From Tritrichomonas musculus (lineage: Eukaryota > Parabasalia > Tritrichomonadida > Tritrichomonadidae): a stretch of 64,000 bases of DNA. The translations under genes and the position numbers were made by a program. The notes under the pieces were generated by a model that saw only the letters and a program-made list of their open reading frames with translations, was not told where the DNA came from and did no database searches. Of this stretch, positions 22,101-64,000 are shown piece after piece (the first letter of the stretch is position 1; every line of letters starts with the position of its first letter). The DNA lies in NCBI GenBank assembly GCA_039105265.1, contig JAPFFF010000006.1, positions 3,286,001-3,350,000 on the forward strand, in the 5' to 3' direction.

Positions 22101-25100
22101 CTTGGTCTAAATCTGAAAAATCAGGACAAGTCATAGCTGACCACCTTAAAGAAATGGAAAACAAGTTATCTGAATCTGAAGCACAATGCAATTCATTATA
22201 TAAGACTTTATCTGACGTTCAAGAAAAAGATCGTTGTGAAAATGAACGTTTGTTGGCACAAATTGAAACATTGAACAATGAAGTGAACTACACTAACCAA
22301 AAGAGAGTTGAGTTACAATCCCAATTAAATAATTTGCAACAAGAATATGATAGTTATCAAGTTGACACTACTGTTCAAATGGATATGTTGAAGAATAAAG
22401 TTTTCAACTTGAATTCAAATAACGAAAAATTAACTCAACAATTGTCTGAAGCTGACACTTGCAGAACTGAATTAGGAAAGAAACTTGTTGAAGTACAAGA
22501 AAAAGCTGGCTCCGAAATTGAACTTTTGACAAACAAATTGCTTGAAAATAAACAAATCGAAAGAAATGAAATCAACATTTTAAGCAGAGAGATCAATCGT
22601 CTGAACAAGGAGTTCGCAGATTCAGAGAATCATGTTTTGATGTTAACAAAGAGATTGAATGATGTCCAATACAAATCGAAACGTCAAATCAACGAAGCAG
22701 AAAACAAATACAAATCAATTGCCAAAGAATTAACAGATACGAAGAATCGTGCACAAATTGATTATGATCATTTCACATCAGACATGAATCACATGAAAGC
22801 CACACTTGATAAGACAGAATCACAAAAGAAAGAATTATTAAAACAAATGTCAATTTCACAAGAAAATGCTAAAGTCCAAATTGACACCCTTTATGCACAC
22901 AGTGAACAATTGAAAGAAGCATTAGAAACATCTAAGACCGAGAAACAAGAAATGATTGACAACTTCAATACAGAACAAAAGAAAGTTTCAGAAGAAATCA
23001 ACAACATGAAGAACGAAATTGAATACATGAAATCAGAAAGTGAACGATTGAAAACGAATGGCATCAAATTATGTCAACAATTACTGAAATCAGATTCAAC
23101 ATGCAATTCATTAAAGAACAAACTTTCCGAAATGCAAACACGCGCTAACAATAAGATTTCACAACTTCGAATCCAAATCAATGCATTGAAAGATGCATTA
23201 TCTCAAGCAGAAGCACAAAAGACCGATCTCATGAAGAAATCTGAAAATGCACAAGTTAGAGCAAATGATCAAATCAACAAACTCAACGGACAAATTGATA
23301 ATTTGAAGAATGCTCTGTTGAAGGCTGAAGGAAGAAATGCAGAAACAACAAAGAAATTAGATGAAGCACAAAAGAAGGCAGCAGGACAAGCTAAACAATT
23401 GAATGGTAAAATAAATGCACTGAAGGACAATTTGTCTAAAGCAGAATCACAGAAGGCGGAATTGGTCAAGAAATCAGAAGAAATGCAAACGCGTGCTAAA
23501 GAAGAAATGAAAGGATTGAATTCAAAGATTGATACATTGACAAAAGCATTATCTAAATCAGAATCACAGAAAGTTGAGACAACAAAGAAACTATTATCAA
23601 TTGAAGAAAACAGCAAAACAACGATCAATCAACTTTCATCAGAGAATCAAACGATGACACGCCAAATCACAGAACTACAAACACAAACATCGAAATTAAG
23701 CAATGAAGTAACACTCAGAGAAACAAATGTCAATGCATTAACAAAGAAACTTTCAGAAACAGAATCACAAGCACACAATGAAATTGATAAATTGAACAAA
23801 GAATTATCAGGAGCTCAAGCAAACAGTGCAGACTTGGCTGGCCGATTGAAGATCTTACAGAAAGAATACGATGACTACCAAGTTGATACAACAGTTAGAA
23901 TGGACATGCTGAATGACAAGGTCTTCAACTTGAACAGAACAAATGAACAATTGAATAAACAACTAAATGAAACAGAAGCAGCAAGAGTAGAATTGAACAA
24001 TAAATTATCAGAAACACAAAAACAAGATCAGAATAAGATTGATAAATTGAACAAACAATTATCATCGGCAGAAACGAATGGCAACGAATTAACAAAGAAA
24101 CTTTCAGAAACGAAAGAACGAGCAACAACCGAAATCAACAAATTAAATGACCAATTAACAAACACAACCGCCACCTGCACCGACTTGACAGATAAATTAA
24201 CGAAATTACAGAAAGAATACGATGACTACCAAGTTGATACAACAGTTAGAATGGACATGCTGAATGACAAGGTCTTCAACTTGAACAGAACCAATGAAAA
24301 ATTAGACAAACAATTGAAAGATGCTGAAGCAGCTCGCAATGAATTAGGCCAGAAACTTTCTGATATCCAAGTAAAGGCACATACTGAAATCGATAGATTG
24401 AACAAGGAATTAGTTGCCTCTGACAATAACAACAAAGAATTGACAAACAAGTTACTTGAAACTAAACAAATCGAAAGAAATGAAATCAACATTTTAAGCA
24501 GAGAAATCAATCGTCTTAACAAGGAATTTGCAGATTCAGAGAATCATGTTTTGATGTTGACAAAGAGATTGAATGATGTCCAACACAAATCGAAACATCA
24601 AATCAACGAAGCAGAAAACAAATACAAATCAATTGCCAAAGAATTAACAGATACGAAGAATCGTGCACAAATTGATTATGATCATTTCACATCAGACATG
24701 AATCACATGAAAGCCACACTTGATAAGACAGAATCACAAAAGAAAGAATTATTAAAACAAATGTCAATTTCACAAGAAAATGCTAAAGTCCAAATTGACA
24801 CCCTTTATGCACACAGTGAACAATTGAAAGAAGCATTAGAAACATCTAAGACCGAGAAACAAGAAATGATTGACAACTTCAATACAGAACAAAAGAAAGT
24901 TTCAGAAGAAATCAACAACATGAAGAACGAAATTGAATACATGAAATCAGAAAGTGAACGATTGAAAACGAATGGCATCAAATTATGTCAACAATTACTG
25001 AAATCAGATTCAACATGCAATTCATTAAAGAACAAACTTTCCGAAATGCAAACACGCGCTAACAATAAGATTTCACAACTTCGAATCCAAATCAATGCAT

Positions 25101-28100
25101 TGAAAGATGCATTATCCCAAGCAGAAGCACAAAAGGTTGATCTTAATAAGAGATTAGAAGATGTACAAGCCAAAGCCAACGATCACATCAACAATCTTAA
25201 CGGCCAATTAAGCTTATTGAAGGACAACTTGGCCAAGGCTGAAGCACAAAAGGCAGACTTCATGAAGAAATCAGAAGATGCACAAGCTCATGCAAAGAAT
25301 GAAATCAAACAACTTAATGGAAAGATCGACTCATTCAAGAAAGCATTATCTGAAGCACAAACACAAAAGGCAGACGTCACAAAGAGATTCGAAGATTCCT
25401 TAGCTAAAGCCAATGGCGAGATCAGCAAACTCAACGGGCAAATCGATAATTTGAAGAATGCTTTGTTGAAGGCTGATGGAAGAAATGCAGAAACAACAAA
25501 GAAATTAGATGAAGCACAAAAGAAGGCAGCAGGACAAGCTAAACAATTGAATGGTAGAATAAATGCATTGAAGGACAATTTGTCTAAAGCAGAATCACAG
25601 AAGGCAGAATTGGTCAAGAAATCAGAAGAAATGCAAACGCGTGCTAAAGAAGAAATGAAAGGATTGAATTCAAAGATTGATACATTGACAAAAGCATTAT
25701 CTAAATCAGAATCACAGAAAGTTGAGACAACAAAGAAACTATTATCAATTGAAGAAAACAGCAAAACAACGATCAATCAACTTTCATCAGAGAATCAAAC
25801 GATGACACGCCAAATCACAGAACTACAAACACAAACATCGAAATTAAGCAATGAAGTAACACTCAGAGAAACAAATGTCAATGCATTAACAAAGAAACTT
25901 TCAGAAACAGAATCACAAGCACACAATGAAATTGCCAAATTGAACAAAGAATTATCAGGAGCTCAAGCAAACAGTGCAGACTTGGCTGGCCGATTAGAAA
26001 TGTTACAGAAAGAATACGATGACTACCAAGTTGATACAACAGTGAGGATGGACATGTTGAATGACAAGGTCTTCAACTTGAACAGAGCCAATGAACAATT
26101 GAATAAACAACTAAATGAAACAGAAGCAGCAAGAGTAGAATTGAACAATAAATTATCAGAAACACAAAAACAAGATCAGAATAAGATTGATAAATTGAAC
26201 AAACAATTATCATCGGCCGAAACGAATGGCAACGAATTAACAAAGAAACTTTCAGAAACGAAAGAACGAGCAACAACCGAAATCAACAAATTAAATGACC
26301 AATTAACAAACACAACCGCCACCTGCACCGACTTGACAGATAAATTAACGAAATTACAGAAAGAATACGATGACTACCAAGTTGACACGACCGTCAAGAT
26401 GGACATGTTGAGCAACAAAGTCTTCAACTTGAACAGAACAAATGAAAAGTTGAACAAAGACTTGGCTGATGCACAAAGTGTTGGAAAAGAATTAGGCCAG
26501 AAACTTGTTGATACACAAGAAAGATCAGCCACAGAAGTTGACAATTTGAACCAACAATTGTCAACTGCTACAGCAAACTGCACCGAAATGAACACCAAAT
26601 TAGAGAAATTACAGAAAGAATACGATGACTACCAAGTCGACACGACAGTCAAGATGGACATGCTCAAGAACAAGGTCTTCAACATGAACATGACAATTGA
26701 AAAGTTAAGCAAACAGTTGACAGATGCAGAAAACAATGACGCCAACTTAACTAAAGAACTCTCAGACACGAAAGAACGGGCAGTTACAGACATCAACAAC
26801 TTGAATGACCAATTAACAACAGCATCAGCAAACTGCACGGAATTGACAGGCAAATTAGAGAAATTACAGAAAGAATATAATGATTACCAAGTTGACACGA
26901 CAGTCAAGATGGACATGATGAGCAACAAAGTCTTCAACTTGACCAGAACCAACGAAAAATTGAACAAACAATTGTCAGACTCAGAAGCAAGCAGGAACGA
27001 ATTAGGCCAGAAACTTTCCGATGCACAAAAGAAAGCAGATTCAGAAATCAACAGATTAAACAAAGGAATTTCAGATGCAGAATTCCATTGCAACCAATTA
27101 ACAAAGAAACTTTCACAAACCAAAGAACAAGATCATTCAAAGATTGACAAATTGAACCAACAACTGTCAACAGCATCTTCAAACTACAATGAATTGAATT
27201 CCAAATTAGAGAACTTACAGAAAGAATACAACGACTACCAAGATAACAACAAAGTCAGAATGGACATGCTTAAGAACAGAGTCTTCAATTTGAACATCAC
27301 AATCAATAAATTATGCCAACAATTGACTGACACTGAAGCAGAAAAAGATGATCTTTCAGAATCAAGAGAGCAAGCTAGAATTGAAATCGAGAAATTAAGT
27401 GAAGAATTGTTCACAGCTAAATCAAATTGCAAAGAATTAACTTCTGAGTTGAAAGAATTACAACATGAATATGATGGATATCAAGTCGACACGACAGTCA
27501 AGATGGACATGCTGAAGAACAAAGTCTTCAATTTGAACAGAACAAATGAAAAATTGAACAAACAATTGAAAGATTCTGAAACTGTCCGCAATGAATTAGG
27601 CCAGAAACTTTGTGATACACAAGAAAGATCAGCCACCGAAGTTGACAATTTGAACCAACAATTGTCAACCGCATCAGCAAACTGCACCGAAATGACAACC
27701 AAATTAGAGAAATTACAGAAAGAATACGATGACTACCAAGTCGACACAACAGTCAAGATGGACATGCTCAAGAACAAGGTCTTCAACATGAACATGACAA
27801 TTGAAAAGTTAAGCAAACAGTTGACAGATGCAGAAAACAATGACGCCAAATTAACTAAAGAACTTTCAGACACGAAAGAACGGGCAGTTACAGACATCAA
27901 CAACTTGAATGACCAATTAACAACAGCATCAGCAAACTGCACGGAATTGACAGGCAAATTAGAGAAATTACAGAAAGAATATAATGACTACCAAGTTGAC
28001 ACGACAGTCAAGTTGGATATGATGAGCAACAAAGTCTTCAACTTGACCAGAACCAACGATAAATTGAACAAACAATTGTCAGACTCAGAAGCAAGCAGGA

Positions 28101-30832
28101 ACGAATTAGGCCAGAAACTTTCCGATGCACAAAAGAAAGCAGATTCAGAAATCAACAGATTAAACAAAGGAATTTCAGATGCAGAATTCCATTGCAACCA
28201 ATTAACAAAGAAACTTTCACAAACCAAAGAACAAGATCATGCAAAGATTGACAAATTGAACCAACAACTGTCAACAGCATCTTCAAACTACAATGAATTG
28301 AATTCCAAATTAGAGAACTTACAGAAAGAATACAACGACTACCAAGATAACAACAAAGTCAGAATGGACATGCTCAAGAACAGAGTCTTCAATTTGAACA
28401 TCACAATCAATAAATTATGCCAACAATTGACTGACACTGAAGCAGACAGAGATGCAACACAAGAACAATCTAGAATTGAAATCGAGAAATTAAGTGAAGA
28501 ATTGTTCACGGCTAAATCAAATTGCAATGAATTAACTTCTGAGTTGAAAGAGTTACAACATGAATATGATGGATATCAAGTCGACACGACAGTCAAGATG
28601 GACATGCTGAATAACAAAGTCTTCAATTTGAACAGAACCAACGAGAAATTAGACAAACAATTGAAAGATTTTGAAGCAGCTCGTAATGAAATAGACAAGA
28701 AACTCTCTGATTCACAAGCACAATCACACACAGAAATAGAAAGATTGAACAAAGAATTGTCTGTTTCTGTTTCAAAGAGCGAGAAATTGACGACTGAATT
28801 GAATGAAGCCAAATCAAGCTGCACACAATTAACTGAGAAGTTAACACAATTCAAACACCAAGCAAATGATCAAATCGATCATTTGAAGAATGATTTGGCA
28901 GATTCAATCAACAGCAACAAACAATTGACTGACAAATTATCAGAAGTCAATCAAATCAAGAAAGACGAAGAGACACATTTGAACGAACAAATTGAACGTC
29001 TTCAGAAGTCATGTGATGAATCAGAGAACCATGTAAGAATGCTCACAAAGAGATTGAATGAAACACAAACAAAAGCAACCGAAGAAATCAGCAACATGAA
29101 GGAAAGACTGGCTGAATCTGATGCAAGAGTCACTGAAGCTTCACAAAAATTGAATGAAACAGAAACAAATGACAAGAATGAAATTGAAAGACTCAAGAAC
29201 GTTCTTTCTGACTTAGAAAAGAACAGAGTTGAATTGTATGACAAGCTACAACAATCAGAAGAAAAGAACGCTCAATTGACCAAAGACATGTCTGAACTTC
29301 AAGTCAAGATAAAAGTTGAAATATTCAATTTGACCTCTGAAATCGAACAATTGAAGAATGCGTTAGATAAATCACTCAATGATAACAAAGAACTCAACAA
29401 CAAGTTGCTTGAAACGAAGTCAATTGAGAAGAACAAAGTTGACATTTTGAACAGACAAATTGAAAATCTTCACAAAACTTTGAAAGAGTCAGAAAATCAT
29501 GTTCAAATGTTAACACAGCAATTTAACGATGTCCAAGTGAAAGCCAAAGAAGAGATCACAATAATGAAGAAGCATTTAGAAGAGACAGAAACAAGATGCA
29601 CTGAATTATCACAAACAATAACTGAAACAAGAAGTGAAAATGAATCTAAAATGACAGAATTGAATGACATGAAAATAACAATAGAAAACTCACAACGTCA
29701 AATCACTTCATTGACACAACAATTAACTGAAGAACAAGCGAAATCCAAAGTCAATGAACAAAAGTCAATCGATTTGACAGACCAATTATCCAAAGAAAAA
29801 GAAAAGGCACAAACTGACATCAATCTTTTGAAGTTCGCTTTATCTGACTCACAAGATCAAGCTGGCCAATTAATGCAAGAACTTTCAATGACAAAAGAAC
29901 AAGTTGATTCATTATCGCAAGAATTAAATGATGCTCGTAACACAGTTCAAGAACAGACAACTTCAATGATGACCGAAATCAACGAGCTTCGAAATCAACT
30001 CATTGAAACAGATACACAAAAGAACCAGCTTTCATCGAAATTGTCACAAACACAGAAGAATTACAACGCAGATGTCAACAAATTGTCAACAGCAATAGAC
30101 GAACTCGTGTCCGAAATAGACGTCCTTTCATCTGAAATCGCAGGAATGGCACAGTCATATGAAACGTTCTATTCAATCATCGGCCGCTTGAAGCAAACAA
30201 TTTCAACACTCGAATCACAAAAGAACCAACTTACAAACCAAATCATCGTCAATCAAACTTCAACAAACACCGAAATCACATCGTTAAAGAGAGAAATAAC
30301 AAACGCTGAAACAAGAGCAGAATCCGAGAAAAAGAAAGGAAAACCTTTAGATGGCGATAATCGTCAATATGCAAACATGAAGTTTGGTCTTTCAATGACT
30401 TTGAGAGGTTCTGATAATGATAACAACGCACAAGAAAAAACTTACGCTTTGACACTTGTCAAAAATTGCACCCACTTTTTGAATGAAGCCGGCTTGAAAC
30501 TTGATCTCACTGAAACTGATGATAACGATGAATACCAACAATTTACCTTCGGAAAGGATGATTGGAATACTGTCATCGACTCTTCTGAAAAGAAGGGAAT
30601 GGTCTGGGACGTTGCCGATCAATATAATTTGAATCCACCAGAAGGAACTCCATTCTACTTGTTCCCATTCCACGGAAGACATAATCAGCACTTCATTTAC
30701 CAAGATGGTTACATTTATGCGAAACAAAATGGCCAAGTTGTCACTTATGTCGGTGGTGATGTTCCATTTGTGATGATGGATCCTTGTGAATCCCTCAAAG
30801 ATAGACAAACATTTAAGATCCATTTAATTTAA
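19199..30832 (+). CDS. Giant tandem calponin-homology coiled-coil protein with C-terminal beta-trefoil-like domain
   Basis: The 3,877-residue protein has no interruption. Residues about 8-118 and 147-252 are two calponin-homology domains (FTRWVNSQLKNSN, LGLVWSLILHYSIG; ALLSWANDRISDYPNI), the actin-binding pair of alpha-actinin and ABP-120-type proteins. Residues about 255-560 are 13-14-residue Glu/Ala/Arg repeats (REKAEAxAxxER). From there to about 3,700 it is continuous coiled coil. The last 160 residues form a globular domain (FYLFPFHGRHNQHFIYQDGY, then QTFKIHL near the end) that resembles a ricin-type beta-trefoil. Within the coil, large in-frame tandem copies are seen: a unit starting at 22550 repeats 1,914 bp later (2,148 bp after a 234-bp insertion), and another unit repeats with a 1,104-bp period. 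Codons favour C-ending forms unlike most neighbours, suggesting high expression. It is likely an actin-linked cytoskeletal fibre or scaffold protein. Confidence 0.9.
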   Translation: MSLSKVDEEWIPLQEKVFTRWVNSQLKNSNIFKVDNITKDLSSGVTLVELAKILTRKDTSRPWAEDPKRNVDMVQNCDLAVDMFTKDGVKLIGISGKDVNDNNEKLILGLVWSLILHYSIGQSVDSGSPSKDNNSSGKENRQSSKNYKEALLSWANDRISDYPNINNFQPYDLSMCALLDSYVPEKINYYSLNPSDSEHNSELATNVMNELGIPILVYPDDIAKTGNKVDQKTLLTQLSTAKVVLDNKLLRDAEDKRKQEEVLAREKAEEEADRIEKEKEKAESRAEAEKIAREKAEENAKIESERIEKEKAEAEARAESEKLAREKAESQSETEKIIREQAEARAETERDAREKAEARSEQERLAREQAESRSEEERKAREQAESRSEEERLAREKAEARSVEERKAREQAEARAEAERQAREKAEADAKAEADRITKEKEEAEARAESERISREKAEADARADTERMMKEKEEAEARAESERISREKAEADAKAEADRITKEKEEAVARAESERISREKAEADARAGAERMMKEKEDALNETERLTKALSDVQSQFEANSQSLTLAHEQIEKLEKSLSESESTNKSLTLKINELDENYKLEISRLTQALSDSQKEKESLSSELENLNKSFQNNEEQRKKLAEQIASLKHNAKVDHDNLTAEIAQLKITLDQTQEKYKADHDNLTAEIAQLKITLDQTEEKNQVDHDHLVSEIDRLKSELEASESRGNDLSSKLSEAQENAKVQNENFVSQINQLKKSLDDSESMRKSLSTELTNAQNESKESVHQLKLVISDLENERVQLIQKLSDSEKDQEKNKNEIEQLKKVLSLTESQKNGLAKKLDEIETKDNNEIANLKNVLQLAEKQRVDLTNKIEEIQHIDKEHIDELTKELSSTQAKRDELTKSLTEIQEKYKVENDHLINELEALKLELTKSMKLSEDLANKLLLNKAIERNELFILNREIARINDAWSKSEKSGQVIADHLKEMENKLSESEAQCNSLYKTLSDVQEKDRCENERLLAQIETLNNEVNYTNQKRVELQSQLNNLQQEYDSYQVDTTVQMDMLKNKVFNLNSNNEKLTQQLSEADTCRTELGKKLVEVQEKAGSEIELLTNKLLENKQIERNEINILSREINRLNKEFADSENHVLMLTKRLNDVQYKSKRQINEAENKYKSIAKELTDTKNRAQIDYDHFTSDMNHMKATLDKTESQKKELLKQMSISQENAKVQIDTLYAHSEQLKEALETSKTEKQEMIDNFNTEQKKVSEEINNMKNEIEYMKSESERLKTNGIKLCQQLLKSDSTCNSLKNKLSEMQTRANNKISQLRIQINALKDALSQAEAQKTDLMKKSENAQVRANDQINKLNGQIDNLKNALLKAEGRNAETTKKLDEAQKKAAGQAKQLNGKINALKDNLSKAESQKAELVKKSEEMQTRAKEEMKGLNSKIDTLTKALSKSESQKVETTKKLLSIEENSKTTINQLSSENQTMTRQITELQTQTSKLSNEVTLRETNVNALTKKLSETESQAHNEIDKLNKELSGAQANSADLAGRLKILQKEYDDYQVDTTVRMDMLNDKVFNLNRTNEQLNKQLNETEAARVELNNKLSETQKQDQNKIDKLNKQLSSAETNGNELTKKLSETKERATTEINKLNDQLTNTTATCTDLTDKLTKLQKEYDDYQVDTTVRMDMLNDKVFNLNRTNEKLDKQLKDAEAARNELGQKLSDIQVKAHTEIDRLNKELVASDNNNKELTNKLLETKQIERNEINILSREINRLNKEFADSENHVLMLTKRLNDVQHKSKHQINEAENKYKSIAKELTDTKNRAQIDYDHFTSDMNHMKATLDKTESQKKELLKQMSISQENAKVQIDTLYAHSEQLKEALETSKTEKQEMIDNFNTEQKKVSEEINNMKNEIEYMKSESERLKTNGIKLCQQLLKSDSTCNSLKNKLSEMQTRANNKISQLRIQINALKDALSQAEAQKVDLNKRLEDVQAKANDHINNLNGQLSLLKDNLAKAEAQKADFMKKSEDAQAHAKNEIKQLNGKIDSFKKALSEAQTQKADVTKRFEDSLAKANGEISKLNGQIDNLKNALLKADGRNAETTKKLDEAQKKAAGQAKQLNGRINALKDNLSKAESQKAELVKKSEEMQTRAKEEMKGLNSKIDTLTKALSKSESQKVETTKKLLSIEENSKTTINQLSSENQTMTRQITELQTQTSKLSNEVTLRETNVNALTKKLSETESQAHNEIAKLNKELSGAQANSADLAGRLEMLQKEYDDYQVDTTVRMDMLNDKVFNLNRANEQLNKQLNETEAARVELNNKLSETQKQDQNKIDKLNKQLSSAETNGNELTKKLSETKERATTEINKLNDQLTNTTATCTDLTDKLTKLQKEYDDYQVDTTVKMDMLSNKVFNLNRTNEKLNKDLADAQSVGKELGQKLVDTQERSATEVDNLNQQLSTATANCTEMNTKLEKLQKEYDDYQVDTTVKMDMLKNKVFNMNMTIEKLSKQLTDAENNDANLTKELSDTKERAVTDINNLNDQLTTASANCTELTGKLEKLQKEYNDYQVDTTVKMDMMSNKVFNLTRTNEKLNKQLSDSEASRNELGQKLSDAQKKADSEINRLNKGISDAEFHCNQLTKKLSQTKEQDHSKIDKLNQQLSTASSNYNELNSKLENLQKEYNDYQDNNKVRMDMLKNRVFNLNITINKLCQQLTDTEAEKDDLSESREQARIEIEKLSEELFTAKSNCKELTSELKELQHEYDGYQVDTTVKMDMLKNKVFNLNRTNEKLNKQLKDSETVRNELGQKLCDTQERSATEVDNLNQQLSTASANCTEMTTKLEKLQKEYDDYQVDTTVKMDMLKNKVFNMNMTIEKLSKQLTDAENNDAKLTKELSDTKERAVTDINNLNDQLTTASANCTELTGKLEKLQKEYNDYQVDTTVKLDMMSNKVFNLTRTNDKLNKQLSDSEASRNELGQKLSDAQKKADSEINRLNKGISDAEFHCNQLTKKLSQTKEQDHAKIDKLNQQLSTASSNYNELNSKLENLQKEYNDYQDNNKVRMDMLKNRVFNLNITINKLCQQLTDTEADRDATQEQSRIEIEKLSEELFTAKSNCNELTSELKELQHEYDGYQVDTTVKMDMLNNKVFNLNRTNEKLDKQLKDFEAARNEIDKKLSDSQAQSHTEIERLNKELSVSVSKSEKLTTELNEAKSSCTQLTEKLTQFKHQANDQIDHLKNDLADSINSNKQLTDKLSEVNQIKKDEETHLNEQIERLQKSCDESENHVRMLTKRLNETQTKATEEISNMKERLAESDARVTEASQKLNETETNDKNEIERLKNVLSDLEKNRVELYDKLQQSEEKNAQLTKDMSELQVKIKVEIFNLTSEIEQLKNALDKSLNDNKELNNKLLETKSIEKNKVDILNRQIENLHKTLKESENHVQMLTQQFNDVQVKAKEEITIMKKHLEETETRCTELSQTITETRSENESKMTELNDMKITIENSQRQITSLTQQLTEEQAKSKVNEQKSIDLTDQLSKEKEKAQTDINLLKFALSDSQDQAGQLMQELSMTKEQVDSLSQELNDARNTVQEQTTSMMTEINELRNQLIETDTQKNQLSSKLSQTQKNYNADVNKLSTAIDELVSEIDVLSSEIAGMAQSYETFYSIIGRLKQTISTLESQKNQLTNQIIVNQTSTNTEITSLKREITNAETRAESEKKKGKPLDGDNRQYANMKFGLSMTLRGSDNDNNAQEKTYALTLVKNCTHFLNEAGLKLDLTETDDNDEYQQFTFGKDDWNTVIDSSEKKGMVWDVADQYNLNPPEGTPFYLFPFHGRHNQHFIYQDGYIYAKQNGQVVTYVGGDVPFVMMDPCESLKDRQTFKIHLI
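22550..26390 (+). repeat. Large in-frame tandem duplication inside the coiled coil
   Basis: Sequence from 22550 (KQIERNEINILSREINRL) recurs almost identically from 24464, a shift of 1,914 bp. After about 25130 the second copy carries an extra 234 bp (78 codons), so downstream matches are shifted by 2,148 bp (for example 23301 and 25449). All shifts are multiples of three, so the heptad register is preserved. The high nucleotide identity points to a recent event. Confidence 0.85.
26640..28580 (+). repeat. 1,104-bp in-frame tandem duplication in the coiled coil
   Basis: Four shorter units in the first half repeat in the same order in the second half with a 1,104-bp shift, which becomes 1,095 bp after a three-codon difference near 27345/28445. 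Each unit carries a variant of the LQKEYDDYQVDTTV-MDML-NKVFNLN motif. Thirteen copies of this motif occur between about 22340 and 28650, many spaced about 255 bp apart (85 residues). Confidence 0.8.
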
Positions 30833-55450: not shown

Positions 55451-57577
55451 TTAAAACAAATTTAATAGATCATCATTGTTTGATGATTTGTTCTGTTGTT
55501 GAGGCTGCGAAGGACCCAAAGTTAAACCACCATTTACAGTACGAGGAATTCTTTGCGGACTCTGATTCTGTTGATTTTGATTCTGATATGTAGTAGGTGA
55601 ACCAAAAGGAGAAAATGAATTAAAATCATTACTTAAGTTTGACTGTTGACTTTGATTCGTCATATTAAAGTTAGAATTGAAGGATGGAGTTGAATTCAAA
55701 TTAAAACTGTTACTCTGACTTGGAGATGCTAAAGGCGATGTCATTTTAATATCTGATGCAAATGATGCATCTAAACTATTGTTAGAATTCATTTGATTTG
55801 TTTGACTTCTTTGATTTGGATTAGAAATTGGTTGTCGAGGTGGTGTAGGTGGTGCAGTTTGCACAGGCTTTGGCTTCAGTGCTTCCAATTCAGCATCAGT
55901 TGGTTTATCAATTGGACGGTCGAGTGATGATGCTGATTTGTACATCGTGATAGCATTCGCCATCCAAGCACAGATTCTCTTTTGAACATACAATTCACAA
56001 TTTGGCGATGCTGCTACTGTTGCTGCAACTTGAACCGCTCTTGCCATTATATTTTTATTTGATGCTTTTTTGAGAGATGCGATAATCTCATACATAGCTT
56101 CGGAGACGGATGGCGAACCTGAATGCTTCTTCCAGCTCTTAAATACACGTGGAAACTGTTCACGAAGGAATGCATCATTGTCAGCGACACTCATACATGC
56201 TGCAATTGATTTAAATGTTTGAGAGGTTATTTGGTCATCAGTTGTTGAATTAGCTAAATCTACTAATTTTGGTATTAAAACTGTTCTAACTGATGTTTCA
56301 TTGATAGATTTAACAATTTCTGGAAGACGTTTTAAACATTCTTTCTGAACTTGTTCGTTATCTGATTGAATTGCTTGGAATATGATTGGATATACGCAAT
56401 CGTTATGCAAACTTTTCTCTGTTTTGGCGAGAATAAGAGGAATTGATTGAAGTAATGCGATTGAAATGTGCGGTGGATCTTTAACTGCTGTTAAAAATGA
56501 AATTTTCTTAAAGACTTCCTCAGTGAATTCACTAACAGAAAATTTTTCAGAAACAGAAAAAATTGTTCCCAATAAAACTGGCGCGAATCGAGGGTCTGAC
56601 TTACATTCTGCGATTAAGATTGGTAATATTTTTGCTTTAGTCATCATTGGTGAAAAATTGTGTATCGCTGTTGCTAATCCTTTGAAAAAACCAAATTTAT
56701 CTTTCGGATCTTTGGCTATGATTAAATCAAGATAACGAAGAACTTTAATTGGAATAGTTTGAAACGGTTCTTGCGAAATAAGATTTTCGACACTTGGTCT
56801 TTGAAGCGGTGATGCATTAAAACATTGTCCCATGATAATCGAAAATTGTTCTGATACTTTTAATGCATAAATACTTGGATCAACTGTAGAATCAAATTCG
56901 TTCATATATTTTATTTTTCGTAGTTTGCTAGATGTTAACATTTCATATAAGATACAACAAAATGAAAAAACATCACTCTGTGGATAACCTTCTTTGTTAA
57001 TTACTACCTCTGGCGCTGTGTAGTTAATATCTGGCATTGTTGGGTCAATTTTAAAGAGAGGAAATGGCATTTGTGTTTGTCCTTGCGAAGACATCTGAAT
57101 AGACCAATCAAAATTAAATATTTTAACACCTAAAGTTTCATTTAAATATATTGCTGATGGCGTAAGTCCCATGTGAAGCATTTTGGCTCCGTTATGAATA
57201 AATGATAAACCATCCAAAATTTGATAACTGATATAACTACAATCAGTAACATCCATACTTCCAATGAGAGTAGTTAAACATGATGAAACTGGCTCTGATG
57301 AAAATGCGAGGTTAGAAACACTATCTTGAATTTGTAAAATCTTTAAAATTCGCGGATGAATAACTTTTTGCACTATTTTAAGTCCATTTAAATACCCTTG
57401 TAAACAAGGATTCTGTAATGACGGGTCTGGAATTAGTTCACTTAATAATTGCGAATCAATTTTCCAGAGACAAACACGCTGATTATTTATTCTCGATATT
57501 GCTGAATGAACCTTCCAACAGCCTGATGAAAAAATATAAGTTACTTTGTCATAATTTGATGAAATACCTGGACCCAT
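55451..57577 (-). CDS. SCYL2-like pseudokinase with HEAT repeats and clathrin box
   Basis: The 708-residue protein follows the SCYL architecture. Residues about 10-270 are a kinase fold with lost catalysis: HMGLTP replaces H-R-D-L, and NFDWS replaces D-F-G. The ATP Lys position (LWK) and APEVV remain. Residues about 280-540 are HEAT-type helices (ECLKRLPEIVKSINETSVRT). The last 140 residues are Asn/Gln/Ser/Pro-rich, with SPFGSP-type endocytic-like motifs, and end in DDLLNLF, a near-consensus clathrin box (L-hydrophobic-x-hydrophobic). SCYL2/CVAK104 binds clathrin and AP complexes in traffic between trans-Golgi, endosomes and plasma membrane, and the terminal box supports the same role here. 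Convergent with the UBR/ankyrin gene, 286 bp apart. Confidence 0.85.
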   Translation of the reverse strand: MGPGISSNYDKVTYIFSSGCWKVHSAISRINNQRVCLWKIDSQLLSELIPDPSLQNPCLQGYLNGLKIVQKVIHPRILKILQIQDSVSNLAFSSEPVSSCLTTLIGSMDVTDCSYISYQILDGLSFIHNGAKMLHMGLTPSAIYLNETLGVKIFNFDWSIQMSSQGQTQMPFPLFKIDPTMPDINYTAPEVVINKEGYPQSDVFSFCCILYEMLTSSKLRKIKYMNEFDSTVDPSIYALKVSEQFSIIMGQCFNASPLQRPSVENLISQEPFQTIPIKVLRYLDLIIAKDPKDKFGFFKGLATAIHNFSPMMTKAKILPILIAECKSDPRFAPVLLGTIFSVSEKFSVSEFTEEVFKKISFLTAVKDPPHISIALLQSIPLILAKTEKSLHNDCVYPIIFQAIQSDNEQVQKECLKRLPEIVKSINETSVRTVLIPKLVDLANSTTDDQITSQTFKSIAACMSVADNDAFLREQFPRVFKSWKKHSGSPSVSEAMYEIIASLKKASNKNIMARAVQVAATVAASPNCELYVQKRICAWMANAITMYKSASSLDRPIDKPTDAELEALKPKPVQTAPPTPPRQPISNPNQRSQTNQMNSNNSLDASFASDIKMTSPLASPSQSNSFNLNSTPSFNSNFNMTNQSQQSNLSNDFNSFSPFGSPTTYQNQNQQNQSPQRIPRTVNGGLTLGPSQPQQQNKSSNNDDLLNLF

Positions 57578-58832: not shown

Positions 58833-59684
58833 ATGGAAGATCGTTCAACATTTGTCGACAAACCAGACAAAGATCAAAAACACCCACACTTTGAGCATCG
58901 TACAGCCAAGATGTACAAGAAAAACAATGAATTCTCTGAAAAGAAATTCCAACGTGTTAGGCATGTTTCAAACAAGAAAGATCTTGTTAGTTCATTAAAA
59001 AGAATTGCCAAATGCTTAAACACTACAAACATATCAGAAGTTCCAACCGAAGGACTTCAAAAAGTTTGCCTTCTTTTGATCAACAATTATGAACATGATA
59101 AGCATGATCCAAAAGTCGGACCATTGAACGATGCATATCTCTTTGGTCTTCATCATCATCGTCTTGGCTTCAAAGTATTCTTCCTTCGTAACTGCGGTTG
59201 CCAACAATTCACACAATTCTTTGAATTGTTCTTAAAGTACACATTACAACAGTTAACCGTTTTCTACTCCGGAAGAGATTCAATTATTAATGGCAGCCAC
59301 GGAATTGAATTCGAAGATAACACAATCTCCAGCACAGAACTCGGAAAAATAGTCGCTGATAACTACAATGGACGCTGCAAGGCTCTCTTGGTCTCTGACT
59401 GTACAGCAGGAGGATCAGTTTTCGATATCTCATCTGTTCCAAACAACTCAGATTTGATTTTACTTTCCGTCAACAAGTCAACTGACCCAGACTCAAAAGA
59501 AGGAAGAAGGTCTCATGGCATTTTCACATATTACCTCTGCAAAGTTTTCAACGAATGTCCAAACATCACACCAAATAGACTTTGTGAGAGGATGAACGCT
59601 TACATTGAACGTTTCAACACATCATTCAATTGCCAAGTCACAAAACCAGGAGAAGAAGATCAACCAATCTACAGCACAGAATAA
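58833..59684 (+). CDS. Metacaspase-like protein (clan CD, C14), catalytic His missing
   Basis: The 283-residue protein has a caspase-fold core at about residues 75-260: VCLLLINNYEHD (first strand), then DAYLFGLHHHRLGFKVFFL, LTVFYSGRDS (142-150), and ALLVSDCTAGGSVFDI (184-199). The Cys position is kept (Cys190, S-D-C-T-A-G-G-S for the usual D-C-C-H-S-G-S). The catalytic His of Y-S-G-H-G is Arg148. Histidines nearby (NGSHGIEF) could hardly replace it. The later SKEGRRSHGIFTYYLCKVF is also typical of the group. It is therefore probably a proteolytically dead, regulatory homologue. Codon use is richer in C-ending codons than in most neighbours, hinting at good expression. There is no prodomain, signal or transmembrane segment. 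Confidence 0.78.
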   Translation: MEDRSTFVDKPDKDQKHPHFEHRTAKMYKKNNEFSEKKFQRVRHVSNKKDLVSSLKRIAKCLNTTNISEVPTEGLQKVCLLLINNYEHDKHDPKVGPLNDAYLFGLHHHRLGFKVFFLRNCGCQQFTQFFELFLKYTLQQLTVFYSGRDSIINGSHGIEFEDNTISSTELGKIVADNYNGRCKALLVSDCTAGGSVFDISSVPNNSDLILLSVNKSTDPDSKEGRRSHGIFTYYLCKVFNECPNITPNRLCERMNAYIERFNTSFNCQVTKPGEEDQPIYSTE

Positions 59685-60495
59685 ATTATCTATCTTACTC
59701 ATGAATACATTTAACTTAAATAAAAGTTAAATTTTTTTAAAAAAAAAATAATATCTTGTTTTTTTATCAATGCTTTTTAATTTAATTTTGTTTTATACTT
59801 ATTATTTGATGTTATAATTACTATTTCTCCTTTGCTTATTATTTGCATACTCATTGATCACTAACAATAAACTCTAATTTCAAAAACTTTTCAATTCTTA
59901 TTGATTTATGGAATATTAACTATTAATAAACATCAATCTTGAAATAGAATTCAAATTTCAGCAATATCTTTTGGTACTTTGAGATAGAGAATAATTTGTA
60001 ATTAATCTAAAGTTTAAATTAATCAATTTTTTAATCAATTTTTATAAATATAATAAGTTTATCACTAATATATAATATTTTAATACTATGATGTCAATTA
60101 TTTATGTCAACAATTTATTTATATTATTTAATTACGAAATTTATTAGAAAACCTTTTACTATTTGCGTGAAAAAATGGTAGTTACTCCATAACACATGTA
60201 ATTTAGCTCATTTATTTTCAATAAAAGTCAATTATTAATAATAAAAAAGAATAGTATGACAATTTGTTATACAATAAAAATTAATATTTTAAAGCAATGT
60301 TATATGATTTATAATTTAAATTTAAACTTCATTAAACTCAAATTATATTAAAATAATTAAATTTTATGAAAAATAGAATTTTATTCAATTTTTGCATAAT
60401 TTTCTCTCAATCATGATCTTTTTAATATAACTTTTTGAGAGAATATTTTCAAAGTCAATTATAAACTTTTTGGGAGCAATTTTAAAATTTTTAAA
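59685..60495. other. AT-rich intergenic stretch
   Basis: About 810 bp without a gene, repeat or RNA that I can support. Confidence 0.4.
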
Positions 60496-63400
60496 ATGAG
60501 CGTTTTAGAAATTAGAAATAAAATGAACAACATTCAAAATTCTCTTCTGGAATTTCTTGAGGAAGAGTCAGATGCAGAAGATAAATATGAAAATTTCATT
60601 AATTTAATCAGAGAAGAACAATTAATTAATGATGAATATCAAATCAAATCAATAATTCAATTAATAAGCGACATCGGGAACAATCATCAACGGAATCATA
60701 CTTTTATTTCTAAGATTGAGAAACTTTTAAGATATTTGAAACAAGATCTCCAAAATTATATTTCAAATTCAGATTTTTTCGAATATTTCAAGGATAACAA
60801 ACGAATCCTTCTATTTCTTCTTGAAGAAAAAATGATGATATTCGATGAAAACATTTTTTCACGAATTATAAGTGAAAGATTAGATAATATTCTCAATTTT
60901 AAATATTTTCAACCGGAAATCAAACCGTTTCTAACAAAAGAAATCATTGAAAAATACACAAATGAAAGTGTATATTTGAAATATGAAAAAATTATTGAAG
61001 AAATGAGGAAAGAAGTTGAAGAAGATTTCTATGAAAAACGACGAAAGGGAGAAAATGACGATAATTTATGTCAACTGATTCGAAATAACGAAATTGTAGA
61101 ATTTATCAAATTTGTTGAACAATCAAATACGTCACTTAACATTTATATTAAAACATCAAAATATGAAACAAATCAACTTTTGATTGATAATGAAGAAATC
61201 AGTCTGATTGAATATGCTTCATTTTATGGCTCGATCGACATCATCAAATACATGAAAGTGAAACAAATTAAACTGAGAAAATCGATGTGGATTTATGCGA
61301 TTCACAGCAGGAATGCAGAACTGATCCATTTTCTTGAAGAGAATCATGTTTTACCACCAAAAAAAGATTATGATATGATTCTTCGAGAATCGATTAAATG
61401 TCATCACAACGCAATTTCAGACTATATCATTAATAATTTAATTAAAGAAGAAGATCTACAAAATAGCATTGAAAACGATTTTTATAACAATTTTTATCGA
61501 TATGCAGTTGAATATCACAATTATTGCTTTTTCCCGAAAGACATGAAATACAAAAACATGTTTCTTTATTTATACAGATTTAAATATTACACACTTGTGA
61601 AACTTTATTTAACAGATGGAACAATTGATATTGATATAAATACGAGAGTTAAAACAATTACTATTTTAAATAATATTTTTAAATCAAAATCATTCATTAC
61701 ATTCAAATTCAACTTTTTCATGAAATTTGAAAATTATTTTTTGTTAAAGTTTAAATGAAACATTTAATAGGACAGCATTGATTCTTGCAGCAAGAGATGG
61801 TCAATCAGAAATTGTTGAATTATTATTAAGACAAAAAGGAATTAAAGTCAACAGCCAAGACATTTTCAATCACAAGCATTCATGAAATTCAATTCAACTT
61901 TTTTCATGAAATTGACAATTTGAAATATTCCTGGAATTTAAGCCAATCATTTGATGACACAGCGTTGATTTATGCAGCTAAAGGAGGCTACACAGAAATT
62001 GTTGAATTATTATTAAGCCATAAAGACATTGATATCAGCATCAAAAACATTTTAAATTAAAAACATTCATGAAATTTAAATCAAACTTTTTTCATTCAAT
62101 TGAAAATCTAAATAATTCATGGAATTAAAGTCAAATTTTTAATTATACCGCGCTTATTAATGCTATAATAGGAAGCCATATAGAAATTGTTAAATTATTA
62201 TTAAATAAAGGAGGTTCTGATATCATAAATGTCCGTGACATTTAAAATCAAAATTATTTATAACATTCAAATCTAACTTTTTTAATTGGATTTGAAATAA
62301 TGAATGATTTATGGAATTTTAATTGAATTATTAATTGTACACCTTTGATTCTTGCTGCAAATGATAATCGTATAGAAATTGCTGATTTATTATTAAAACA
62401 AGAAGGCATTGATATTAATAGCATCGACATTTTAAATCAAGAACTTTCATGAAATTTGAATTCAACTTTTTTAATAATATTAAAATTCATAATGATTTTT
62501 GGCATTTTAATATAACATTTTAATAAAACGGCATTGATTCATGCAGCAACTAGAGGTCAAGCAAGAATTGTCGAATTATTATTAAAACAAGAATGTATTA
62601 ATATCAACCTCGGAGACATTTAAAATTAAAAGCATTCATGAAATTTAAATCAAACTTTTTTCATTCAATTGAAAATTTAAATAATTCATGGAATTAAAAT
62701 CAAATATTTAATTATACAGCGCTTATCAAAGCTATAATGGGAGGTTATATAAAAATTGTTAAATTATTATTAAATAAAGGAGGTTCTGATATCATAAATG
62801 TCCGTGACATTTAAAATCAAACTCATTTATGATATTTAAATCTAACTTTTTTTCATTGGATTAGAAATAATGAATGATTTATGGAATTTTAATCAAATTA
62901 TTAATCATACACCTTTGATTCTTGCTGCATATCATAATCGTATAGAAATTGTTGATTTATTACTAAAACAAGAAGGCATTGATATTAATAGCTTCGACAT
63001 TTTAAATCAAGAACTTTCATGAAATTTGAATTCAACTTTTTTAATAATATTAAAATTCATAATGATTTTTGGCATTTTAATATAACATTTTAATAATACG
63101 GTATTGATTCATGCAGCAATTGGAGGTTACACCAAAATTGTCAAATTATTATTAAAACAAAAAGGTATTAAAGTCAACCTCATAAACATTTTAAATTAAA
63201 AAAGCATTCATTATATTCAAAACTAATTTTTTTTTTCATCGGATTTAATAATTGAATGTTTTATGGAATTTAAATCGAAAATTTAATGGCACGGCGTTGA
63301 TTGTAGCTTCAGTTTCTGGTTTTAAAGACATCGTTGAATTATTATTAAGCCATGAAGGCATTAAAGTCAACACACAAAACATTGAAAATTAAAAACATTC

Positions 63401-63950
63401 ATGAAATTCAAATACAAATTTTTGAATAATATTGAATCTTTGAATGATTTTATGGGATTCAAATGGAACATTTAATAACTCGGCGCTAATCGAAGCTGCA
63501 ATAAATGGTTATATAGATATTGTTGATTTATTATTAAGACAAGAAAGCATTGATGTCAACATCAAAAACATTTTAAATTAAAAACATTTAAAATGTTCAA
63601 ACCTAACTTTTTTATGGTATTTAAAAATTGAATGATTTATGGAATTTAAATGGAACATTTAATAATACGGCGTTGATTGAAGCTGTAAAAGGATACCATA
63701 CAAAAATTGTTGAATTATTGCTAAGACATAAAAACATTGATATCACCATCCGAAACATTTTAAATCAATGATATTCATGACATTCAAATTTACTTTGTTG
63801 ATGATATTAAAAATTTGAATAATTAATGCAATTTTCGAAAAAATAGTTTATCAAACAGCAATTGGCTTGGCAAGAAAAGGATCTAATATGGAAATTGTTT
63901 ATCTTCTATCCAAAGCGGAAAAGGTGATAAATCATAATGATTCCATATAG
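60496..63950 (+). CDS. DUF3447/ankyrin gene split into 13 coding blocks by uniform spacers
   Basis: The first block (60496-61677, 394 codons) is a typical trichomonad DUF3447 protein start: N-terminal helices, then ISLIEYASFYGSIDIIKYMK, WIYAIHSRNAELIHFLEENH and LVKLYLTDGTIDIDIN. The frame runs 27 codons into the first spacer and stops at 61756-61758. Twelve ankyrin blocks follow. Each encodes one repeat of the form FNxTALIxAAxxGxxxIVxLLL followed by xxxxIxVNxxxI. The final one (63846-63947) is followed by TAG. If spacers are removed, the blocks join in phase 0 into 804 codons without a stop or frameshift. I cannot tell from sequence whether this is a spliced gene, a silent repertoire or a pseudogene; the perfect frames favour function. 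Ankyrin solenoids bind proteins; the partner is unknown. Confidence 0.6.
61678..63845 (+). other. Twelve intron-like spacers between the ankyrin blocks
   Basis: Spacers: 61678-61762, 61865-61949, 62052-62137, 62243-62329, 62432-62518, 62621-62706, 62812-62899, 63002-63088, 63191-63281, 63384-63470, 63573-63657, 63760-63845, so 85-91 bp each. They share an order: AAATCAAAA near the start, CATTCATGAAATT, a CAAACTTTTTT or CTAACTTTTTT tract about one third in, then GAATGATTTATGGAATTTAA near the end. Most carry stop codons, and most lengths are not multiples of three. They do not begin with GT or end with AG. A direct repeat of the type ATTT(T)AA sits at both borders of most of them. Confidence 0.75.
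61763..63947 (+). repeat. Twelve ankyrin-repeat coding blocks, 102 or 105 bp, about 190-bp period
   Basis: Blocks: 61763-61864, 61950-62051, 62138-62242, 62330-62431, 62519-62620, 62707-62811, 62900-63001, 63089-63190, 63282-63383, 63471-63572, 63658-63759, 63846-63947. Ten encode 34 residues. Blocks 3 and 6 encode 35 through one in-frame codon. No block has a stop. Each begins with Phe/Ile-Asn (the last with Val-Tyr) and ends with an Ile codon. Blocks 3-5 (with spacers) are nearly repeated by blocks 6-8 at a shift of 569-570 bp. Confidence 0.85.
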
Positions 63951-64000
63951 CAAATGAAATGATCCATATTGGATAATAAAAATTACACGAATTTCCATCT

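Follow-up and report, generated by a model that had tools for sequence, protein, structure and literature searches.

An ankyrin gene of Tritrichomonas musculus with its repeats divided by putative introns that lack GT-AG ends

In exon-per-repeat ankyrin genes of animals, a repeat corresponds to a phase-0 exon and the introns have GT-AG ends, and in designed ankyrin repeat proteins the variable residues lie at surface positions of the repeat. The nonconventional introns of euglenids (PMC6221363; see also PMC4770533) have non-canonical, variable ends, leave the RNA by an unknown route and exist beside a normal spliceosome; PMC6221363 describes insertion at many new positions and a stable fold in which bases +4 to +6 are usually paired with bases -8 to -6. 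For some diplonemid species, most introns are described as lacking GT-AG in the presence of a near-complete spliceosome, with extensive pairing of the ends as the mark of the noncanonical introns (PMC12621601). The description of Amoebophrya comprises repeated non-GT-AG introns with short direct repeats across their borders, and introner families that extend across many genes and carry 8-20-nt inverted repeats (PMC7789003). In Trichomonas vaginalis, which belongs to the same phylum as Tritrichomonas musculus, the spliceosomal introns have GT/AG ends, with the branch site and the 3' end fused together, and the account in PMC12316389 gives 63 active introns in total and describes transcripts with multiple introns as absent.

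We analysed a 64,000-nt stretch of the T. musculus genome (the window), in which positions 60496..63950 of the plus strand hold an N-terminal exon, 11 full ankyrin blocks and a terminal block, divided by twelve spacers of 85-91 nt:

60496..61677, plus strand: N-terminal exon, 394 codons, of a family named DUF3447 in NCBI records (alternative end 61665)
61678..61762, plus strand: spacer 1, 85 nt, or 97 nt with the exon end at 61665
61763..61864, plus strand: ankyrin block 1, 102 nt
61865..61949, plus strand: spacer 2, 85 nt
61950..62051, plus strand: ankyrin block 2, 102 nt
62052..62137, plus strand: spacer 3, 86 nt
62138..62242, plus strand: ankyrin block 3, 105 nt
62243..62329, plus strand: spacer 4, 87 nt
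62330..62431, plus strand: ankyrin block 4, 102 nt
62432..62518, plus strand: spacer 5, 87 nt
62519..62620, plus strand: ankyrin block 5, 102 nt
62621..62706, plus strand: spacer 6, 86 nt
62707..62811, plus strand: ankyrin block 6, 105 nt, near-duplicate of block 3
62812..62899, plus strand: spacer 7, 88 nt
62900..63001, plus strand: ankyrin block 7, 102 nt, near-duplicate of block 4
63002..63088, plus strand: spacer 8, 87 nt
63089..63190, plus strand: ankyrin block 8, 102 nt
63191..63281, plus strand: spacer 9, 91 nt
63282..63383, plus strand: ankyrin block 9, 102 nt; even alone it exceeds the Pfam Ank cut-off (22.7 versus 21.1 bits)
63384..63470, plus strand: spacer 10, 87 nt
63471..63572, plus strand: ankyrin block 10, 102 nt
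63573..63657, plus strand: spacer 11, 85 nt
63658..63759, plus strand: ankyrin block 11, 102 nt
63760..63845, plus strand: spacer 12, 86 nt
63846..63950, plus strand: terminal block with stop codon TAG

The coordinates, counts and lengths that the initial annotation had given for this array (12 blocks including the terminal one, and 12 spacers) agree with our own; nine of the full blocks measure 102 nt and two 105 nt. Its description of every junction as the same is slightly too strong: ATT (Ile) is the last codon in all 11 full blocks, and 10 of them start with Phe-Asn or Ile-Asn, but one starts with Phe-Asp, and the terminal block, which closes with TAG at 63950, starts with Val-Tyr. TRF detects a 189-bp array at the locus with a score of 1272, more than expected by chance.

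Inspection of the blocks at 21 loci (218 of 102 nt and two of 105 nt) revealed no stop codon in any of the 220, one more unit of 221 being left unresolved; all 196 of the joins tested, ATT to TTT or ATT to ATT, are open, and a stop inside the spacer closes the upstream frame in 199 of 199 spacers. By parsimony, the blocks have undergone 4 nonsense changes versus 95.9 expected from spacer rates, together with about half of the core replacements expected (494 versus 912.7) and 262 core silent changes versus 268.3. Stepwise counting gives 26 nonsense changes in the block frame versus 101, compared with 64 versus 72 and 82 versus 108 in the two alternative frames. Among the more conserved codons, pN/pS lies between 0.45 and 0.75 across six distance bins, so that the comparison of replacement and silent change suggested at the outset argues against decay. 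Four codons of the block are hypervariable, with a 4.4-fold excess in the parsimony count; because silent changes at these codons are doubled as well (27 versus 13), and one spacer triplet is equally variable (63-64 changes per site versus a mean of 11), the case for positive selection alone is weakened. Taken together, the open blocks, the shortage of nonsense changes, the constraint on core codons and the hypervariable codons indicate, at the level of sequence, that the blocks are translated and selected as protein. Selection on the joined product, as originally proposed, is thus upheld.

The joined product matches Pfam ankyrin models (Ank_2, 239 bits; Ank, 227 bits; Ank_4, 162 bits), with repeats that match across the joins. 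Two-repeat models peak at the exact join, Ank_4 with 171 bits versus 132-149 for shifts of one or two residues and Ank_5 with 152 versus 117-143; Ank_2 gives the exact join no preference (236 bits versus 228-241 when shifted).

These results bear on the reading that the N-terminal ORF alone is a protein, with the repeats behind it a tandem pseudogene in decay. NCBI records for T. musculus are in keeping with it, as they end at the first stop codon and hold the N-terminal form only; M9Y10_027755 (388 aa), for example, coincides with the N-terminal ORF of locus L025 in length, start and end. A decaying array would, however, be at odds with 220 blocks free of stops, with core codons that stay constrained at large divergence, and with a nonsense deficit that has no comparable counterpart in the other two frames. 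We consider this reading barely credible, and the young pseudogene array listed as an alternative in the initial annotation is rejected on these grounds. Among the 61 blocks of loci L041-L048, located by means of a protein profile biased towards open ones, 3 contain a stop.

Examination of the spacer ends confirmed that these intron-like segments lack GT-AG: neither GT-AG nor GC-AG was found in any of the 196 internal spacers of the 21 loci at same-length shifts from -12 to +12. AT..AC ends occur in 12 of the 196, only at shift +11, where the joined product changes, and a single cut after ATT (offset 0) is the only product-neutral offset common to all 196. ATTT is present at both junctions in 186 internal spacers, and excision between these direct repeats had been put forward as a mechanism; if one copy is removed, the codon that directly follows Ile becomes a stop in 185 of the 186, and on sequence the idea is rejected. 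No signal of coding sequence was found in the spacers in any frame; the spacer frame has no three-base rhythm, nonsense changes in it number 69 versus 102 expected, and its silent changes are not in excess.

Retention of the spacers in the mRNA would require either that ribosomes skip them, as with mitochondrial byp elements and T4 gene 60, or that each unit is translated alone from an ATG in the spacer. The spacer is open in the next block's frame in about half of the distinct units (85/171), with ATGA overlaps common, as such a reading would have it. Many spacers, however, have no ATG, the spacer frame carries none of the coding signals just mentioned, and a ribosome landing on an ATT identical to its take-off codon would meet a stop as the following codon in those same 185 of 186 cases. 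We regard retention as very improbable.

Some spacer elements are nevertheless kept. The internal spacers have one long consensus in common, and a TGGnAT element lies near the 3' end in 179 of 196, 11 nt before the junction in 176 of those; it is also present in all nine spacers of the far-diverged array L049. Because the spacers overall change at approximately the rate of silent sites, strong constraint is apparent only for such elements as persist in distant arrays. In 173 of 200 spacers a further element, TCTAAC, lies no more than 50 nt from the start; it is also used by type B introns of T. vaginalis (PMC12316389), a likeness between the two species. Matches to ACTAACACACAG, sought as a branch-site-like element, with at most two mismatches number 5 in the window versus 2.9 expected, none of them inside the array. 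Rfam models gave no match above gathering in the window and one chance-level match (E 3.9) within 60400-64000, and the spacer is not recognised as a group I or II intron, a tRNA or another Rfam element.

An ordinary U2-type spliceosome that tolerates non-GT-AG ends might remove the spacers, with the TCTAAC-plus-T-run element as branch point. Such a route is one form of the intron reading and does not oppose it. A canonical-looking U2 (6 matches above cut-off) and U6 (2 matches just below) fit this proposal, as does the frequency of TCTAAC. GT, however, occurs near the 5' junction of 20 of 196 spacers, AG near the 3' junction of 48, and the two together in 4; TCTAAC occurs in just 2 of the 10 internal spacers of the window; and the 3' ends of the terminal introns have no final base in common with the internal ones. 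We hold this route to be less likely than not. Unlike the introns of T. vaginalis, the spacers lack GT/AG ends and stand in arrays of 7-30 units.

The lack of conserved GT-AG ends is a feature that the spacers share with the euglenid and diplonemid introns, as is their occurrence next to canonical-looking spliceosomal RNAs. From the euglenid introns the internal spacers differ in that a single long consensus unites them and they sit at one place within the repeat. They seem to differ also in their fold, which appears weak (mean z -0.39): RNAalifold returned no structure for the spacers, mutual-information pairs in them are neighbours as opposed to complementary partners, and the pairing of +4 to +6 with -8 to -6 reaches three pairs in 1 of 196 spacers, two in 19, one in 174 and none in 2. 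Pairing of the ends, the diplonemid mark, is suggestive in the consensus only (24/400 and 9/400 for 20- and 30-nt ends); it exceeds shuffles in 73 of 87 related spacers and is preserved no better than in random mutants (27/52). As in Amoebophrya, the spacers are repeated, lack GT-AG and have shared bases at their borders; here, in contrast to the introners, it is one repeat-exon unit that was duplicated, and the shared border bases are not the excision rule because the frame would be lost.

The proposal that further ankyrin genes with such spacers might exist proved fruitful. In similarity searches of the T. musculus genome the candidate loci number at least 71, spread over 25 contigs, of which loci 30 were examined; the exact junction pattern gave 580 matches versus 0 for a reversed control. 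Like arrays of blocks and spacers are present at 20 loci of one set and at nine further loci. Most of the arrays examined come with their own flanking gene parts: an N-terminal ORF of at least 376 aa lies directly upstream in 18 of 21 loci, and a related terminal block is present in 20 of 21. Spacer-profile matches fall inside arrays in 559 of 561 cases, the other two being weak, among 51 sequences mostly picked for arrays. The spacers examined occupy one fixed position in the repeat, as expected from tandem duplication of an exon-spacer unit.

The genomic arrangement has some features of a silent cassette bank, in which the blocks would serve as donors, by recombination or gene conversion, for an uninterrupted expressed ankyrin gene, with the spacers as homology arms. 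At least 31 of the 71 candidate loci lie on a single contig (C20), the units are arranged in higher-order duplications, two or more of the 21 loci share 5 of the 164 distinct blocks and 7 of the 140 distinct spacers, and the four hypervariable codons would suit such a bank. Yet no uninterrupted relative was recognised: the joined-junction pattern expected of spacerless copies gave 40 matches versus 66 in the control, the top one being a spacer end, and spacerless ankyrin matches are generic, with approximately 30-44% identity among the full-length open matches listed. N-terminal ORFs and terminal blocks would moreover be superfluous for donors. We judge the cassette bank unlikely, and less likely than the intron reading.

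The sequence thus presents blocks selected as protein, separated by non-coding, frame-breaking spacers with one common cut and no GT-AG, and of the readings left for those spacers, that of a new intron class fits best. We infer that the locus is probably a living ankyrin gene of a large family, transcribed and freed of its non-GT-AG introns at the RNA level. Each repeat would constitute one phase-0 exon, as in animal exon-per-repeat genes, with the 85-91-nt introns, unlike those of animals, belonging to a non-GT-AG class that interrupts each repeat at the beta-hairpin. Cuts in the RNA would fall precisely between the ATT codon and the following TTT or ATT, so that the joined repeats form a single uninterrupted ankyrin solenoid after the N-terminal domain. 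Growth of the array would come from tandem duplication of a single exon-plus-intron unit; as all these exons share a phase, unequal crossing over could add or remove whole repeats with the frame unharmed. The variable residues, which would lie at the repeat surface as in designed ankyrin repeat proteins, may bind ligands. More speculatively, the machinery may be parabasalid-specific, a spliceosome-independent (or GT-AG-free) intron system tied to this repeat family, in which phase-0 exons and recombining introns would form a shuffling repertoire of ankyrin recognition proteins with contact residues under diversifying selection.

If the spacers are spliced, Parabasalia would be added to the small number of lineages whose non-GT-AG introns leave the RNA by a route yet to be explained. 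With a sharply defined consensus, a single cutting position and copies in the hundreds, signals and machinery would then be unusually easy to dissect. In the NCBI records examined these genes break off at the first stop codon, so that a family of long ankyrin proteins, receptors or binders, would be absent from the protein set of this common commensal of the mouse gut. Interchangeable exons with hypervariable codons at the surface would constitute a candidate recognition repertoire.

The first junction is the least certain of all. At the present locus, an in-frame ATT could close the N-terminal exon at either 61665 or 61677. With the cut at the place used in internal spacers, the N-terminal frame is out of phase in most loci, and the first join works only with an exon end at an ATT 11 nt earlier. 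At L011, L025 and L026 this earlier ATT is directly followed by a stop. Owing to this frame problem and the stop after ATT, a stop-bounded N-terminal protein made on its own is possible. Among the 120 matches listed of 3589 (8000 candidates scored; top identity 53%), no protein record spans a join, and two unnamed protein records only read on through the first spacer.

The array gene in the window keeps the layout described in the initial annotation: after its N-terminal domain, 11 ankyrin blocks and a stop-bearing terminal block alternate with 12 spacers of 85-91 nt, with a tandem period of 189 (TRF) and a three-unit duplication relating blocks 3-5 to blocks 6-8. The domain and other window ORFs, of which those for the kinase and the caspase domain adjoin the array, are:

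60496 onward, + strand: N-terminal domain, the first 394 codons of the ORF starting at 60496
58833-59684, + strand: caspase-domain ORF (Peptidase_C14, 26.7 bits)
55451-57577, - strand: protein kinase ORF
19199-30832, + strand: single ORF of 3,877 codons

A genome-wide check for similar ankyrin genes, as proposed at the outset, revealed a large family. Used as a DNA query against 193,395,805 bases in 746 contigs (193.49 Mb and 756 contigs in the genome publication, PMC11978803), the array gave 48 matches, which resolve into 40 distinct loci spread over 14 contigs, contig C20 holding 25; with protein matches of at least 50% identity added from among those listed, the counts, which are lower bounds, rise to at least 71 loci on at least 25 contigs, at least 31 being on C20. 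An exact pattern made up of the spacer 3' element, nine unspecified bases and the block start matched 580 genomic sites, and its reversed control none. Thirty loci were examined: 21 including the window, eight more (L041-L048), and one further array, L049.

The window and the 20 fetched loci supplied 221 units, most of 186-188 bp and present in 7 to 30 copies per array; the boundaries of one of them, L018_1, could not be set, leaving 220 blocks for counting. Block length is 102 nt in 218 of these and 105 nt in the other two, both from the window, and no stop codon occurs in any of the 220, the two longer blocks being treated at their own length. The 199 inter-block spacers, mostly 84-87 nt, include lengths of each class modulo 3, and in each of them the upstream frame runs into a stop. 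Directly upstream of the array, 18 of 21 loci carry an N-terminal ORF that reaches 376 aa or more (the exceptions are L009, with a shorter ORF, L015 and L028). Related terminal blocks were seen in all but L026 (20/21). A protein-profile search, which favours open blocks, returned 58 of 61 stop-free blocks for L041-L048 and 10 of 10 for L049. A possible promoter element, ATATCACATTTC, is shared within 70 nt before the ATG by 13 of 15 loci, counted by eye, and is absent from the window.

Direct joining of each ATT to the next TTT or ATT yields an open frame in 196/196 spacers and leaves seven residues from the Asn of one repeat to the Thr of the next, the canonical ankyrin spacing. Of the Pfam models that cover two repeats, Ank_4 and Ank_5 peak at exactly this join, Ank_4 with 171.1 (144.7, 145.5, 132.2 and 149.3 at shifts of 1-2 residues) and Ank_5 with 152.2 (140.3, 117.1, 122.7 and 142.7); Ank_2 is flat and uninformative on the join (236.3 versus 240.9, 227.9, 227.5 and 240.6 at the shifts). 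The earlier proposal of selection on the joined product is supported. The cut can be moved without altering the product by at most 2 bases in most spacers and at most 5 upstream in a few, and directly after ATT is the only position common to all 196.

Replacement and silent changes in blocks, set against spacer rates as the initial annotation had suggested, point the same way, with core replacements at about half of expectation. On a parsimony tree of 216 units (excluding the two units of 105 nt and locus L042, which is nearly identical to L041), whose assumptions are violated by recombination among units, the block changes comprise 897 replacements, 289 silent changes and 4 nonsense changes, the last against 95.9 predicted from spacer rates; the count leaves out 22 changes that pass through a stop where a codon changed more than once, and 19 that start from inferred stops. 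Outside codons 3, 8, 11 and 12, replacements number 494 versus 912.7 expected and silent changes 262 versus 268.3; within these four, the figures are 403 versus 92.2 and 27 versus 13.0. A single-step count gives 26 nonsense changes versus 101 expected in the block frame, and 64 versus 72 and 82 versus 108 in the other two. Pairwise pN/pS lies above 1 (20.9 to 1.17) for six codons picked as variable, and at 0.45-0.75 over six distance bins for the remainder. The variable codons were picked after inspection of the data.

When the loci are split into two halves, the identical four top codons emerge in both; they match ankyrin-repeat surface positions, and three of them are positions varied in designed ankyrin proteins. 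One spacer triplet equals these codons in variability (63-64 changes per site versus a mean of 11), so the excess at codons 3, 8, 11 and 12 may be partly mutational. This triplet (columns 43-45 of the 216 units, consensus CATnnnATT), set in a spacer that is otherwise conserved, is in phase with the next block and is a stop in 1/216 units; columns 19-21 form a second, weaker variable site.

Spliceosomal consensus ends are lacking: at no same-length shift from -12 to +12 does any of the 196 spacers have GT-AG or GC-AG ends, which upholds the claim that no GT-AG pair fits. AT..AC ends appear in 12/196 at shift +11, where the product is altered; GT occurs in 20/196 in the interval that starts 21 nt before the 5' junction and ends 25 nt after it, AG near the 3' junction in 48, and both in 4. 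Excision between ATTT direct repeats, another early proposal, fails, as losing one copy places a stop right after Ile in 185/186; ribosome hopping from ATT to ATT is opposed by the same result.

Judged from sequence, the spacers are probably non-GT-AG introns removed from RNA. A unit would consist of an exon plus its own intron, multiplied in tandem; the most likely process is that the whole gene is transcribed and each spacer then excised, giving an ankyrin solenoid. A narrower version of this intron reading, and a rather doubtful one, is excision by a spliceosome with relaxed end choice that uses TCTAAC. The ordinary splicing machinery is present, with six U2-like genes over the cut-off that carry the usual branch-recognition stretch and two U6-like genes that bear an ACAGAGA box and score 42.5 and 42.0 bits against a cut-off of 44. 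A U1 search gave no match, nor did it give one in any control. TCTAAC may serve as a branch site and is present in 173/200 spacers overall but in only 2/10 in the window. Alternatively, another cutter acting with a ligase may be the agent.

Across loci, internal spacers have in common TTAAATCAAAA as their 5' part, a CATTCATnnnATTCAAATCTAAC-T-run, CATnnnATTGAAAA and, ahead of the 3' end, TTGAATGATTTATGGAATTT. TGGnAT lies within the last 40 nt in 179/196, 11 nt from the junction in 176. L049, a strongly diverged ankyrin array on C13 near 135749, has the same spacer architecture, retaining TGGnAT in 9/9 spacers and the 5' ATT, TTnAT and ATT elements in part, which indicates that this class of spacer predates the main family. 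Compared with silent sites, spacers change alike among close units and somewhat more slowly at larger distance (0.246 versus 0.357). An end-joining fold of the consensus is reached by 24/400 shuffles with 20-nt ends, 9/400 with 30-nt and 63/400 with 15-nt ends, and exceeds shuffles in 73/87 related spacers; it is no better conserved than in random mutants (27/52), spacer fold z-scores are about 0, and RNAalifold finds no structure.

The first junction is the weak point of the spliced-gene reading. With spacer 1 cut like internal spacers, the frame of the N-terminal ORF does not match that of block 1 at most loci, and phase is restored with the exon end at an ATT 11 nt earlier; in L011, L025 and L026 a stop immediately follows this earlier ATT. 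Spacer 1 may therefore be 5'-extended, or the N-terminal protein may finish at this point. At the window locus, either ATT codon is in phase with block 1. NCBI record M9Y10_027755 (388 aa), which covers the N-terminal part only, has the same length, start and end as the corresponding ORF of L025.

A search of literature mostly without subscription papers and preprints found no paper on such introns for Tritrichomonas or for DUF3447 in Trichomonas. All 63 active introns of T. vaginalis have GT/AG ends (PMC12316389), no gene of the annotated T. foetus genome exceeds two exons (PMC11415386), and introns are reported in 2,500 T. musculus genes (5.66%; PMC11978803); the comparator papers are PMC6221363 and PMC4770533 (euglenids), PMC7789003 (Amoebophrya) and PMC12621601 (diplonemids).

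Spacers are shortened to 69 nt in L016 unit 7, where the 5' part is gone between short repeats and ATT is retained, and to 60 nt in L021 unit 1. Among the matches listed, four on C15 (3257992, 3264642, 3271292 and 3277942) lie 6,650 bp apart, which suggests tandem duplication of complete array genes there. A natural 606-aa protein, P0005, carries a similar N-terminal domain that runs straight on into a single ankyrin block and then leucine-rich repeats, which we read as BspA-like.
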